Positions 286-4,783 of a DNA stretch of 49,639 nucleotides are shown in pieces. Each line of letters opens with the position of its first letter. Position 1 is the first letter of the stretch. The stretch comes from Pseudomonadota bacterium (lineage in GTDB: Bacteria > Pseudomonadota > Gammaproteobacteria > UBA1113), in assembly GCA_021778015.1 (NCBI GenBank), contig JAJYCX010000015.1, forward strand, positions 1 to 49,639. The letters are read 5' to 3'. A program made the translations under genes and the position numbers. The notes under the pieces were generated by a model. That model saw nothing but the letters and a program-made list of their open reading frames with translations, made no database searches and had not been told where the DNA came from.

Positions 286-1374
286 ATGCCAAGTCATGTC
301 TTAGCGCGTAAATGGCGTCCCCAATCTTTTATAGAAGTCATAGGCCAACCCGCTATTGTGCAAGCTTTAACGCACGCTTTAGAAAGTGGTCGTTTGCATC
401 ATGCTTACTTATTCAGCGGCACTCGCGGTATAGGCAAGACTTCACTGGCTAGATTGTTGGCAAAATGTTTGTCTTGTGAACAAGGGCCTACGGTTACGCC
501 GTGTGGTCACTGTAATCCTTGCTTGGCCATTGCCCAGGGTAATTATTTAGATCTATTAGAAATAGACGCCGCTTCTCGCACCAAAGTTGAAGATACCCGT
601 GAACTATTAGAAAGCGTGCAATACCCGCCTATTATGGGCCGCTATAAAATTATTTTAATAGATGAAGTGCATATGCTCTCCGGCCATAGTTTTAATGCCT
701 TATTAAAAACGCTAGAAGAACCGCCCAAACACGTTATTTTTTTACTGGCCACAACCGAACCTGAAAAGTTGCCGAATACAGTGTTATCGCGTTGCTTACA
801 TTTCACCTTAAAACCATTAAGCAGCGAGGCCTTAAGCCACCATTTTAGCCATATTTTACAGCAAGAAAATATTGTATTTGAGCCTAATGCGCTCGCTTTA
901 ATTGCCAAATCCGCTAGGGGCAGCGTGCGTGATGGTTTAAGTCTATTAGAACGTTGCATTGCTTTTTGCGATGATAACATCACGGTAGATAAAATCAGTG
1001 AATTGTTAGGCCTAGCCGATAGCCACAGCGTACAACTGCTCTTAGATGCGTTGCTGCAAAACGATGCCGTCAGCGGCTTGACGGTGATTCGTCAACTCGC
1101 CGAAAAAGGCGTTGATTTTAGTGAAGTGCTAGAAGCCTTTATGACATTATTGCATCAATTGGCATTACAACAGGCCTTAGAAAAAAATAATTCCGCTGCG
1201 ATGAGCCCTGAACGCATACAATTGTATTATCAAATTGCCCTGATGGGACGACGCGATTTAGCACTTGCCCCCGATCAGCAAATGGGCTTTGAAATGTTAT
1301 ACATACGCTTATTGGCTTTCCAACCTTGGCAGGATGATAGTGATATCTCCCCTACCGTAAAAAAAAACTTTTGA
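286..1374 (+). CDS. dnaX: DNA polymerase III subunit gamma (0-frame product of dnaX)
   Basis: Clamp-loader ATPase of the replisome. The 362-residue 0-frame product has the dnaX start (VLARKWRPQSF), Walker A GTRGIGKT at 45-52, the zinc-site cysteines C64, C73, C76 and C79, Walker B IILIDE at 122-127, and the sensor-1/arginine-finger stretch ending SRC at 168-170. The C-terminal clamp-loader (collar) domain follows. The frame ends at TGA 1372-1374, directly after nine A residues at 1359-1367. The DnaE-binding tau domain continues in the +1 frame (see next entries). E. coli gamma is 431 residues and tau 643; here the 0-frame product would be gamma-like. Programmed slippage, a real pseudogene-type break, or a homopolymer sequencing error are the alternatives. 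Confidence 0.9.
   Translation: MPSHVLARKWRPQSFIEVIGQPAIVQALTHALESGRLHHAYLFSGTRGIGKTSLARLLAKCLSCEQGPTVTPCGHCNPCLAIAQGNYLDLLEIDAASRTKVEDTRELLESVQYPPIMGRYKIILIDEVHMLSGHSFNALLKTLEEPPKHVIFLLATTEPEKLPNTVLSRCLHFTLKPLSSEALSHHFSHILQQENIVFEPNALALIAKSARGSVRDGLSLLERCIAFCDDNITVDKISELLGLADSHSVQLLLDALLQNDAVSGLTVIRQLAEKGVDFSEVLEAFMTLLHQLALQQALEKNNSAAMSPERIQLYYQIALMGRRDLALAPDQQMGFEMLYIRLLAFQPWQDDSDISPTVKKNF
1359..1367 (+). other. A9 slippery tract in dnaX
   Basis: Nine consecutive A residues lie where the dnaX frame must change. In the 0 frame translation ends after V-K-K-N-F. Loss of one A (or gain of two) in the mRNA joins codon 360 to the open +1 frame and gives a 506-residue tau. A -1 shift of the E. coli kind instead meets TAG at 1395-1397, so it cannot make tau. 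Thermus thermophilus dnaX is known to make gamma and tau by RNA polymerase slippage on a nine-A run. The same mechanism is inferred here, not shown. Confidence 0.6.
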
Positions 1375-2177: not shown

Positions 2178-2774
2178 ATGAGTTTTAGTCCGCTCATAGA
2201 CAAATTAATAGCACAGCTGCGCTTTTTACCCGGTGTAGGGCCAAAGTCGGCGCAGCGCATGGCTTTTCAATTATTAGCGCGCAATCGACCTGCCGGTAAA
2301 CAATTGGCCGAAGCCTTGTTGGCTGCTATGAACGAAGTTGGCCACTGCGATCTATGTAGAACCTTCAGTGAAACGGCGCGCTGTCAATTGTGCGCTAATC
2401 CTAGGCGCGATCAACGCGTATTGTGTGTAGTGGAATCTCCTGCGGATCTATTGGCGATAGAACAAACCGGTTTTCATGGTTTATATTTTGTATTGATGGG
2501 CCATTTGTCGCCCTTAGATGGCATTGGTCCGGAACAATTGGGTTTAGGATTATTAAAACAACGTTTTCAAAATGAAGGCCTAGGTGAATTGATCATCGCT
2601 ACCAACCCTACCGTAGAGGGCGAAGCCACGGCCCATTACATACACGAATTAAGCCTTCCTTATCAGCTGCGCGTTACGCGCATTGCCCATGGTGTACCTT
2701 TAGGGGGTGAATTGGAATTCATCGACGGGGGTACCTTAGCGCGGGCATTAGCCAGCCGTGAAATTTTAACTTAA
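2178..2774 (+). CDS. recR: recombination mediator RecR
   Basis: RecR acts with RecF and RecO to load RecA on gapped DNA. The 198-residue product has normal length. It starts with a helix-hairpin-helix region ([18 protein letters not shown]), then the four-cysteine zinc finger (CDLCRTF...CQLC, about residues 55-70), the Toprim domain ([15 protein letters not shown], followed by [12 protein letters not shown]), and a C-terminal Walker-B-like stretch ([16 protein letters not shown]). The start ATG has AAGGA a few bases upstream, eight bases after the ybaB stop, so the two are one operon with dnaX. Confidence 0.97.
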
Positions 2775-2801
2775 ATTTAAAAACATCCTCCATCTTAGTG
2801 T

Positions 2802-2829
2802 TGACATTATTCTGAAATTAGATCACACT
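2802..2829 (+). promoter_or_regulatory. promoter of peptide gene 1
   Basis: TTGACA (2802-2807), 16 bases, then CACACT (2824-2829). The spacer ends in GAAATTAGAT, close to GAATTAGAC in the promoter of peptide gene 2, and the -10 resembles the CATACT of genes 2 and 3. The likeness among the three upstream regions supports a shared, duplicated sigma-70-type promoter. Confidence 0.55.
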
Positions 2830-2903
2830 AGTTTCACCAGATCCGTTAATCGACGCCTCTGGGAAGCTTTTTAATTGTAAATAAAATATATCAGGAGACT
2901 ATT

Positions 2904-3152
2904 ATGTTCAAGAAAAGTTTAGTGGCATTTGCCTTGGTTTTAGCTTGTGCCGCAGGTTTTGCTGCTACTACTACCGATTCTTCATCCGATGCTAATGCTA
3001 TGCCTGCCGCAAATGCAATGTCCTCTGCTGACGCTTCAGCAAAACCAGCAGAAAAAGCACCAGCGACAAAGAAAGAAAAGAAAAGCAAAAATGAAGCAAA
3101 ACCTGCAACGAAAGACGCAGCAAAAGATGCCGCAGCACCTGCAGCAAATTAG
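2904..3152 (+). CDS. small secreted Ala/Lys-rich peptide (array member 1)
   Basis: An 82-residue protein of unknown function. Residues 1-20 form a Sec-type signal peptide with Lys-Lys near the start, a hydrophobic core containing one Cys (C15), and the end AGFA, with cleavage expected before ATTT. The mature part is low complexity: a Ser/Asp/Ala/Met segment, then Ala/Lys/Pro-rich with a basic KKEKKSK centre. AGGAG lies nine bases before the ATG. It is the first of four tandem genes with related leaders and unrelated mature parts. It has its own promoter and a following hairpin. The lipobox match is poor, so I do not call it a lipoprotein. It shows some likeness in composition to acid-shock/Asr-like and other periplasmic Ala/Lys-rich proteins; this is not an assignment. 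Confidence 0.75.
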   Translation: MFKKSLVAFALVLACAAGFAATTTDSSSDANAMPAANAMSSADASAKPAEKAPATKKEKKSKNEAKPATKDAAKDAAAPAAN

Positions 3153-3164
3153 ACCTCTCTGGCA

Positions 3165-3188
3165 TACTGGCCCTGCAAAGGGCCAGTA
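3165..3188 (+). terminator. hairpin after peptide gene 1
   Basis: Perfect ten-pair stem TACTGGCCCT / AGGGCCAGTA with a GCAA loop. There is no run of T directly after it, so it may terminate weakly or protect the mRNA 3' end. The same stem core recurs after the other peptide genes. Confidence 0.6.
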
Positions 3189-3249
3189 CTCAATATATAA
3201 CCTTGTTTTTATGAATGCACTCTTTAGAATCAAAGCCTTAACCGAACGC

Positions 3250-3278
3250 TTGACCTGTGTTTAGAATTAGACCATACT
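3250..3278 (+). promoter_or_regulatory. promoter of peptide gene 2
   Basis: TTGACC (3250-3255), 17 bases, CATACT (3273-3278). The -10 and its flank (ACCATACTTATAAA) are identical to those before peptide gene 3 over 14 bases, which marks a duplicated promoter. Confidence 0.6.
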
Positions 3279-3333
3279 TATAAAGTCCGAACTACACAAT
3301 AATTTATCGGGTCGGTTTAAGGAGATTTTAATC

Positions 3334-3564
3334 ATGTTAAACAACATCAAAAAAGGCTTAGTCATATTGACGCTGGCTTTGTTTTGCATAGTTGGATTTG
3401 CTGATCGGGGACATGGCCACTACTATAACCACCATCAGTACTACTACCGCCACCCCGGCCCGTACTACTACCGCCACCCCGGCCCGTACTACTACAACAA
3501 CCACCATCGTGCGTACTACCACAATAATCACCACCGTGTATATCACTACTATCGCCACCACTAA
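3334..3564 (+). CDS. small secreted His/Tyr-rich peptide (array member 2)
   Basis: A 76-residue protein. The leader (residues 1-23) starts MLNNIKKGLVILTLAL, has Cys at 18 and ends GFA. The mature 53 residues are almost only His, Tyr, Arg, Asn and Pro/Gly, with a tandem repeat of YYYRHPGP and HNNHHR-type units; the DNA repeats as well (TACTACCGCCACCCCGGCCCG twice in a row, apart from its last base). AAGGAG lies ten bases before the ATG. His-rich secreted peptides often bind Cu, Zn or Ni ions, and Tyr-rich ones can crosslink; either role is inference. No homologue is recognised. It has its own promoter and hairpin. Confidence 0.75.
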   Translation: MLNNIKKGLVILTLALFCIVGFADRGHGHYYNHHQYYYRHPGPYYYRHPGPYYYNNHHRAYYHNNHHRVYHYYRHH

Positions 3565-3588
3565 GGGCGTAGGGGCTATCCTTAACCA

Positions 3589-3612
3589 TACTGGCTCTGA
3601 AAAGAGCCAGTA
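3589..3612 (+). terminator. hairpin after peptide gene 2
   Basis: Perfect ten-pair stem TACTGGCTCT / AGAGCCAGTA with a GAAA tetraloop. The stem equals that after gene 1 except for a compensated pair (CC/GG becomes TC/GA at one position), so the structure appears conserved across copies. Confidence 0.6.
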
Positions 3613-3663
3613 TCAGAAATAAGCTTAACAGAAAGAATTAAAGACCAAGGCGTAACCGATCGG

Positions 3664-3692
3664 TTGACAACCGTTTAAAATTAAACCATACT
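3664..3692 (+). promoter_or_regulatory. promoter of peptide gene 3
   Basis: TTGACA (3664-3669), 17 bases, CATACT (3687-3692), followed by TATAAA. It has the same layout as the promoter at 3250-3278. The 5' leader is longer here (about 70 bases to the ATG). Confidence 0.65.
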
Positions 3693-3765
3693 TATAAAAC
3701 TCAGATCCGTTCAGTAACCGTTCTGGGGTAGTTTTTAGTTACTAAAAACATAAGGGGATTTAATC

Positions 3766-3909
3766 ATGCCGAACAATATTAAAAAAGGTTTAGTCATACT
3801 AACATTAGCTTTAGTGTGCGCATCGAGCTTTGCTATAACTGGTTCTGGTAACCAAACCCAAAAGCAACATACATGCACATCTAATTGTGGGCCATCTACT
3901 AAGGGCTAG
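3766..3909 (+). CDS. small secreted peptide with two cysteines (array member 3)
   Basis: A 47-residue ORF. The leader MPNNIKKGLVILTLAL is nearly the same as in member 2 and again has Cys at 18 and FA at the end (residues 22-23). The mature part is about 24 residues, polar (ITGSGNQTQKQH), with a C-x4-C pair and GPSTKG at the end. AGGGG lies upstream of the ATG at normal distance. The shared promoter and leader make it a real gene despite its size. The function is unknown. The two mature cysteines could form a disulfide in the periplasm or outside the cell. Confidence 0.65.
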   Translation: MPNNIKKGLVILTLALVCASSFAITGSGNQTQKQHTCTSNCGPSTKG

Positions 3910-3931
3910 TAAAAATAAGATGGGAGCAACC

Positions 3932-3954
3932 ACTCGGGCCCTGCAAGGGGCAGT
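3932..3954 (+). terminator. decayed hairpin after peptide gene 3
   Basis: GCCC (3938-3941) can pair with GGGC (3948-3951) around a loop containing GCAA, with ACT/AGT outside. The loop and stem core match the hairpin after gene 1, but the left arm has extra bases, so it looks like a degenerated copy. Confidence 0.35.
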
Positions 3955-3994
3955 GTACTCTAAACAAATGTAAATTTAAGAGGAGATTTTAGTC

Positions 3995-4168
3995 ATGAAC
4001 AACATCAAAAAAAGCTTAGTGATGCTAACCTTGGCTTTGGTTTGTGTCGCCGGGTTTGCAGCTACTAGTGCTAGACAACCGGCACCAGTAAGATCACCGG
4101 TAGCACAGCCGATGCCAGTAACACAACATCCAGTGCCAGCGCCAGCACCGCAATCACTACATCGTTAA
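3995..4168 (+). CDS. small secreted Pro-rich peptide (array member 4)
   Basis: A 57-residue ORF. The leader MNNIKKSLVMLTLALVC matches members 2 and 3, with Cys at 17 and AGFA at 19-22. The mature 35 residues are rich in Pro, Val, Gln and Ala, with PAPV/PMPV/PVPAP repeats and a C-terminal HR. AGGAG lies 11 bases before the ATG. No clear TTGACA-type promoter is seen between it and gene 3, so these two may share a transcript through the decayed hairpin. The function is unknown. Proline-rich short secreted peptides may be extended surface or antimicrobial-type peptides, but nothing here shows that. Confidence 0.65.
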   Translation: MNNIKKSLVMLTLALVCVAGFAATSARQPAPVRSPVAQPMPVTQHPVPAPAPQSLHR

Positions 4169-4180
4169 GCTGTCCTAACC

Positions 4181-4206
4181 ACACCGGCCCTTTTCAGGGC
4201 CGGTGT
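4181..4206 (+). terminator. hairpin after peptide gene 4 / fis
   Basis: Perfect 11-pair stem ACACCGGCCCT / AGGGCCGGTGT with a TTTC loop. It lies between convergent peptide gene 4 and fis and can serve both. The GGCCCT/AGGGCC core is the same as in the hairpin after gene 1. Confidence 0.65.
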
Positions 4207-4219
4207 TTCGAATCAGATA

Positions 4220-4522
4220 CTAGTCGCGTTGCTTACCTACGTGTGTAGTGTCAAAGTACTCGGCTAGTTTTTTGCGTAAGGTACCACGGCTGATACCCAA
4301 GACGCGTGCGGCTTTAGATTGATTGCCGCGTACATAACGCATAATGCTTTCAATCATTGGCTTTTCAATTTCTGCCATTAATTTTTGATACAAATTATCG
4401 GGTTGTTGATTCCCCAACAAGGCAAAGTAGCGATCTAACACCTCATTCACTTGATGGCCTAAACCATGGGCTTGATTTTGGCTTTTCTGTTGAATCGATG
4501 CAATTTCTTCCGTGCTCATCAT
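4220..4522 (-). CDS. fis: Fis family DNA-binding protein
   Basis: Nucleoid protein and global regulator of the Fis family. The product is 100 residues from ATG 4522. The C-terminal half carries the Fis signature: a Pro-kinked helix (EIEKPMIESIMRYVRGNQ) followed by the helix-turn-helix SKAARVLGISRGTLRKKL. The N-terminal half is unlike E. coli Fis, as in other short paralogues; Legionella has several Fis proteins. I chose ATG 4522 because AGGAG on the minus strand (4533-4537) lies ten bases upstream; the longer frame from 4543 would contain this site. It stands alone here, without the dusB partner found in E. coli. Confidence 0.9.
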   Translation of the reverse strand: MMSTEEIASIQQKSQNQAHGLGHQVNEVLDRYFALLGNQQPDNLYQKLMAEIEKPMIESIMRYVRGNQSKAARVLGISRGTLRKKLAEYFDTTHVGKQRD

Positions 4523-4783
4523 AAGAGTTTGGCTCCTATACAATCTAGTTCATACTTCCCTACTTCGATACGCTTGTATAGAAGCAGGACACAACAATAC
4601 ACTTCCTACAAAAACAGGACGTGAATCTTTTTGGCCATAATTTGTGCGGCTAACTGACCAGGGCTACAAGTTACCATCCCGAACTCAAATAATCAATACT
4701 TTTTGTGAAAAATATCAACATTTTTTAGCACATGAATAAACCGCTTTTGTAAGCATCAAAATCATGCCAACAATATCAGATTA

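Follow-up and report, generated by a model that had tools for sequence, protein, structure and literature searches.

Small genes with a shared promoter, mRNA-start stem and Sec-type leader form a putative export cassette family in one genus of uncultured bacteria

Results

Four small genes with a common leader follow recR

The window analysed here, a stretch of DNA of 49,639 nucleotides, is contig 1 of a genome (G000) of 2.02 Mb that is 83.6% complete and 3.2% contaminated. Four consecutive open reading frames on the plus strand occupy the interval between recR and a Fis-like gene, each encoding a small protein with an N-terminal leader (Table 1). DNA repeats run through the interval: three 76-nt copies cover the leader, matching the reference copy at 72% and 68%, the upstream box is repeated between genes 2 and 3 at 77%, and a downstream hairpin recurs in four copies, at 88, 65 and 69% relative to the reference copy. 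The pattern CTGGCYCT-N3-6-AGRGCCAG occurs in the G000 genome only 3' of genes 1 and 2. The duplicated hairpins described in the initial annotation are thus present 3' of all four genes, the third as a degenerate copy; they have no T run and were not scored as terminator-like.

Table 1. Features of the recR-fis interval, in window coordinates
Feature	Coordinates	Strand	Remarks
recR	2178-2774	+	Named by reading the sequence
Gene 1 promoter	2801..2829	+	TTGACA, 17-nt spacer, CACACT; from alignment to other cassette promoters
Gene 1 stem-loop at expected transcription start	2837..2862	+	CCAGA/TCTGG
Gene 1	2904..3152	+	82 aa; leader of ~21 aa, then Ala/Lys-rich mature part; ortholog in G003
Gene 1 downstream hairpin	3163..3188	+	DNA repeat; exact-pattern match
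Gene 2 promoter	3250..3278	+	TTGACC, 17 nt, CATACT
Gene 2 stem at expected mRNA start	3285..3312	+	GTCCGA/TCGGGT; weak; minimum-energy fold takes a different 3' arm
Gene 2	3334..3564	+	76 aa; leader, then His/Tyr-rich mature part (14 H and 16 Y of 53)
Gene 2 downstream hairpin	3587..3612	+	DNA repeat; exact-pattern match
Gene 3 promoter	3664..3692	+	TTGACA, 17 nt containing GTTTA-N4-TAAAC, CATACT
Gene 3 stem at expected mRNA start	3700..3727	+	CTCAGA/TCTGGG
Gene 3	3766..3909	+	47 aa; leader, then mature part of 24 residues including 2 Cys
Gene 3 downstream hairpin, degenerate	3931..3956	+	65% relative to the reference copy; missed by the exact pattern
Gene 4	3995..4168	+	57 aa; leader, then Pro-rich mature part; without its own promoter
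Gene 4 downstream hairpin	4180..4205	+	DNA repeat
Fis-like gene	4220-4543	-	Named by reading the sequence

Alignment of the four proteins gives 11 invariant columns, ten of which fall within the leader and include K-K, L-V, the core Cys and F-A. With the gene 4 protein as lone query, the other three leaders are retrieved at E values of 3.5e-5, 1.2e-4 and 1.6e-3, and a fifth gene, on contig C12 of G000, at 0.007. We therefore confirm the earlier proposals that one leader is common to the four genes and that each carries one Cys at the same position of the hydrophobic core. The C12 gene has a promoter, 5'UTR and leader as in the array, with Tyr in place of the core Cys. The layout of these leaders, a charged stretch followed by a hydrophobic core and an end of the form F-A or A-x-A, resembles that of Sec signals, and the array leader reads as Sec-type.

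A leader profile recovers the members from which it was built at E = 1e-10 or better, and its next match in G000 (E = 0.0135) lies inside a further cassette. At E ≤ 0.003 it has no match in 368 further genomes of the class; since the profile is blind, even inside the genus, to a second group of leaders linked to thiL (below), this count concerns the array type only, which by this measure is not a leader carried by many ordinary secreted proteins. Outer-membrane-like paralogs of 364-400 residues with similar signal peptides are clustered on G000 contig 43 (L054, L055, L056 and L006); these were considered as leader carriers (E ~0.25) and excluded on account of a different signal peptide.

Upstream of recR, nine A's occupy window positions 1359-1367, and a dnaX-like reading frame stops just after, at 1374, its C-terminal part resuming from 1403 in a different frame. 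The same stop is present in genomes G002 and G003 of the order, and the frame reads through in G001 and G004. This break could be a programmed frameshift, which is known for dnaX, or a sequence error.

The mature parts differ in composition and match no described family

With cleavage sites placed by eye, the mature part of gene 1 is 33% Ala and 16% Lys, that of gene 2 is 30% Tyr and 26% His, that of gene 3 has 2 Cys among its 24 residues, and that of gene 4 is 26% Pro; the corresponding figures are 16% Pro for the C12 gene and 24% Gly and 20% Tyr for gene C26a of the same genome. For all six pairs among the four genes, some dinucleotide shuffles score as high as the mature DNA itself, and the best pair, gene 2 with gene 4, is matched by 9 of 300 dinucleotide and 259 of 1000 codon shuffles, the latter control having covered two of the six pairs. 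The statement that the mature parts share nothing holds up in this comparison, and by their sequences they appear unrelated and mostly of low complexity. Nine proteins searched against Pfam and NCBIfam give no family above its cut-off, in keeping with the earlier remark that no described family has this set, and neither do two thiL-linked proteins searched against Pfam.

The His/Tyr-rich frame of gene 2 overlaps a Pro/Val-rich frame that resembles the second gene of the G003 interval (z of 4.0 against dinucleotide shuffles, 1 of 300 as high). A change of cargo by frameshift in gene 2 was considered and is unsupported, 349 of 1000 codon shuffles scoring as high.

The duplicated unit extends to the promoter and a stem at the predicted mRNA start

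We find that the duplicated unit is larger than had been claimed and, judged by sequence, comprises a sigma70-like promoter whose spacer is conserved, a stem, a ribosome-binding site and the leader. The duplicated upstream boxes reported for the array are borne out for genes 1 to 3; the upstream match of gene 4 starts within the 5'UTR and has no promoter boxes, and this gene may be co-transcribed with gene 3.

Each of the 11 distinct promoters has a stem, with a minimum of 5 bp, that begins 6-8 nt past the -10 hexamer. Mononucleotide shuffles predict 2.07 such promoters by chance and dinucleotide shuffles 2.5; when the stem is made to start in other windows, the count is between 0 and 7 of 11 and peaks in the neighbouring windows that overlap this one. 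Positions here are measured from the -10 box, the transcript +1 being predicted, and because the promoters are related, these are not 11 independent cases. Stem sequences vary by copy, as in CCAGA/TCTGG, CTCGGAT/GTCTGAG, CCCTAGTCTGTT/AATGGATTAGGG and CCCCAGT/ATTGGGG, which suggests that it is the pairing that is kept. The stem is formed in nine of the 11 minimum-energy folds, the exceptions being gene 2, as listed in Table 1, and C12, which folds without it, and only four of the 11 have a 5' segment whose folding energy is lower than that of 95% or more of its shuffles.

At up to three mismatches the spacer motif has 57 matches genome-wide, compared with 19 for the reversed control, and 30 of the 57 loci were inspected (positions being misplaced for L072, L076 and L086, at a contig end). 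A genome-wide regulon defined by this motif was considered and rejected, as many of the inspected matches lie inside open reading frames or lack a convincing start, the exceptions being the cassettes and one DUF5621 gene. The latter (L146:553-2781, minus strand, G000 contig 43) encodes a 742-aa protein that matches DUF5621 (E = 6e-41) and contains the stretch GFSRGA. The ATG of the gene is preceded, at a distance of 18 nt, by an exact copy of the 17-base gene 3 spacer motif, without the cassette 5'UTR. Its product is a possible Dot/Icm effector.

Cassette copies are found in one genus

Eight members were used to build a sequence model (R1) spanning promoter, 5'UTR and leader, and this model was run against 11 genomes of the order, which represent one family and six genera. 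It recovers its eight members and five places outside the training set: gene 4 (partial, 2e-12) and, at 6e-11 to 8e-10, C26 14105-14263 and C49 1258-1416 of G000, C33 of G003 and C98 of G002. The thiL-linked copies, none of which was used in building the model, are found within this same range. A model enlarged to 11 members (R2) returns 13 places with E under 1e-10, none of them new; they lie in G000, G002, G003 and G005, which belong to a single genus. The next best matches, at E ≥ 0.007 for R1 and E ≥ 0.0026 for R2, were treated as noise; both searches scored 150 first-pass candidates in each genome and could have overlooked weak members. In the five other genera of the order, the model searches find no cassette at E < 1e-9.

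Beyond the array, G000 has one copy on C12 and two on the same strand of C26, G003 has three, and G002 and G005 have one each, so that related leaders do occur in close genomes, namely in three of the five others of the genus. The repeated duplication of an export cassette proposed in the initial annotation is thereby supported and extends outside the window, and by sequence this is a genus-level expansion of a gene family with an unusually complete shared cassette. No relative was found in the viral_contigs set. The G005 copy (L125, contig 36) is flanked on one side by a Sel1-repeat protein of 1073 aa and on the other by a 290-aa protein with no match in Pfam. Nearby reading frames were listed for six of the seven weak R2 matches; one of these matches (E = 0.0026) lies ahead of the gene for a 144-aa exported-looking Ala/Pro-rich protein (L144:1564-1998, plus strand, G000 contig 33), which is either a distant cassette member or a chance match.

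The recR-fis interval itself varies, with four genes in G000, two in G003 and none in G002, and G001 and G004 have different genes after recR. The first G003 gene is the ortholog of array gene 1; upstream of the second, the sequence continues from gene 1 as it does for gene 2, and its leader is nearest that of gene 4. This variation fits gain or loss through recombination between cassettes, in either direction.

A gene of 84-86 aa adjoins thiL (named by reading) in G000, G003 and G002, and G000 has in addition a Gly/Tyr-rich gene of 113 aa that carries a separate cassette. The 84-86 aa proteins are invariant in 54 of 87 columns, and a conserved cargo with an invariant Cys indicates that they are not simply disordered. 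A second thiL region in G000 (C49; L121, 1-4000) carries thiL and a cassette gene identical to those of G003 (L122, contig 33); given this identity, C49 probably entered the G000 assembly as a contaminant, and its copy is not counted for G000. A transposase-like gene (by reading) lies beside the thiL-linked cassette of G003, and a Virulence_RhuM protein (PF13310, E = 1.4e-25) is found beside that gene in G003 and also in C49 (L122:4076-4927 and L121:89-1087 for these neighbours).

Leaders are under purifying selection and cargoes change unevenly

Among 20 of the 21 leader pairs (the gene 1/G003 pair left out), pS is 0.35-0.89 and pN 0.09-0.31. Fifteen of the 21 pairs have an omega of 0.05-0.33; of the others, five are saturated and the gene 1 orthologs show no synonymous change (0 differences over 14.3 synonymous sites between G000 and G003). 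These values place the leaders under purifying selection; the combination of high pS, low pN and low omega argues that selection on the leader peptide, rather than recent copying, keeps the paralogs alike.

The mature part of gene 1 has an omega of 0.20 between G000 and G003, with coding indels of only 6 and 12 nt. For the thiL-linked family, mature omega is 0.26 (G000/G003), 0.15 (G000/G002) and 0.19 (G003/G002), and leader omega in the same three pairs, over few sites each, is 0.16, 0.37 and 0.85, the last becoming 1.45 if the other sequence is used to set the leader boundary; in both G002 pairs, then, the mature part changes no faster than the leader. Gene 4 and its positional counterpart in G003 give a mature omega of 0.9, from an alignment with long gaps, and a leader omega of 0.14. 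Omega exceeds 1 in none of the mature parts compared, and recR, the comparison gene, gives 0.01-0.02. The fast change of cargo that had been proposed is therefore seen between gene 4 and G003, in that gapped alignment, and not in gene 1 or the thiL-linked family, whose mature parts are constrained.

The order probably has a host-associated lifestyle

The Dot/Icm component DotI/IcmL (PF11393) is present in 10 of the 11 genomes of the order and absent from all 14 control genomes, which makes a Dot/Icm system, and hence host-associated life, likely. For the host-, rival- or metal-facing role raised in the initial annotation, this component is the sole supporting context. The bacterium from which the window comes, little known and uncultured, thus probably lives with a host.

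Discussion

We tentatively favour, as the leading account and one that could well be wrong, genus-restricted, Sec-exported small proteins made from a reusable expression-export cassette, whose products would be abundant, in many cases disordered, and Asr-like in protecting the envelope or the cell under stress. The 5' stem would shield the mRNA end, yielding long-lived mRNA and abundant peptides; in E. coli, RppH and RNase E require single-stranded 5' ends and mRNA is stabilised by 5' structures (PMC3997798). Cleavage of the leader would fall close to the A of GF-A, and the released mature part would work in the periplasm, in an outer layer or outside the cell. Tandem duplication and unequal recombination would have produced the copies; several cargoes may then have drifted, partly through repeat change, with gene 1 and the thiL-linked genes staying constrained. 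The role would then be envelope or stress protection in a host-associated bacterium, as with Asr in E. coli.

The main rival, which we consider unlikely, is that these are host-facing peptides whose cargo is selected to change on meeting the host, as in the cassette effectors of eukaryotes, where a single signal peptide precedes many different mature parts. The distribution of the Dot/Icm component in the order is compatible with this, as are the pairing of a constrained leader with a mature part near an omega of 0.9 in gene 4, the Sel1-repeat neighbour of the G005 copy (such proteins are common among effectors) and the recurrence of the spacer motif upstream of the DUF5621 gene. However, no mature part has an omega above 1, the gene 1 and thiL-linked cargoes are constrained, and a Sec leader routes proteins to the periplasm and not straight into the Dot/Icm channel.

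It is still less probable that the RNA and leader are themselves the functional part, a regulatory leader unit behind which a short reading frame drifts freely. Conservation of promoter, 5' stem and leader together, and the absence of any synonymous difference between the gene 1 leaders of G000 and G003, would agree with such a unit, whereas across paralogs the leaders are kept as protein despite many synonymous changes, and the mature parts of gene 1 and the thiL-linked genes are under purifying selection. Bacteriocins or modified peptides on a common leader, which several small cargoes behind one leader might bring to mind, are very improbable, as the leader is Sec-like and ends in F-A or A-x-A without a double glycine, and translations read from the recR-fis, C12, thiL and G005 flanks include no recognised maturation, immunity or peptide-export gene, the neighbour on C12 being an apparently ordinary uptake ABC transporter (by reading).

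A more speculative reading, to which we give little weight, is that the promoter spacer, the +1 stem and a leader that is sequence-specific down to its core Cys would form a delivery module of this one genus: a fixed platform for trying new exported peptides (Tyr/His-, Pro-, Lys/Ala- and Cys-rich), for example as a cross-linkable coat of a transmissive cell form or facing the vacuole in a Dot/Icm bacterium.

The nearest functional analogue appears to be Asr, described as a disordered periplasmic chaperone that ranks with the most abundant proteins when acid stress is severe (PMC10746267). Gene 1 is likewise small, with a Lys/Ala-rich, low-complexity mature part, and would likewise be exported; high expression would be expected of the cassette genes. 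None of the nine proteins has a Pfam or NCBIfam match to Asr up to E = 1, and the likeness is most likely one of character, not homology. To our knowledge Asr, unlike the cassette genes, is not a tandem family with differing cargo. The Vlp variable lipoproteins of Mycoplasma hyorhinis form a gene family in which a common promoter and signal peptide precede variable, repeat-rich mature parts. By eye, however, the array promoters have no long homopolymer and the leaders no canonical lipobox, their Cys lying within the hydrophobic core, with gene 1 (VLAC) and C26a (QVGC) borderline.

The stem resembles the 5'-terminal stem-loops of the ompA/papA type (for the principle, PMC3997798) in lying at or near the mRNA 5' end, which here is predicted from the -10 box. 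The KQY cassette effectors of the pea aphid also combine a conserved signal-peptide region with a divergent remainder (PMC7495047); they are eukaryotic and assembled from miniature exons, and serve as an analogy only. A limited literature search found no bacterial precedent, and as far as it shows the cassette family is undescribed. A fixed export leader with changing cargo is known from venoms and from mycoplasma lipoproteins; the family described here couples such a leader to a shared promoter and mRNA-start stem and can be traced copy by copy in close genomes, which would make it possible to study how exported small proteins are born and change in an uncultured, probably host-living bacterial order.
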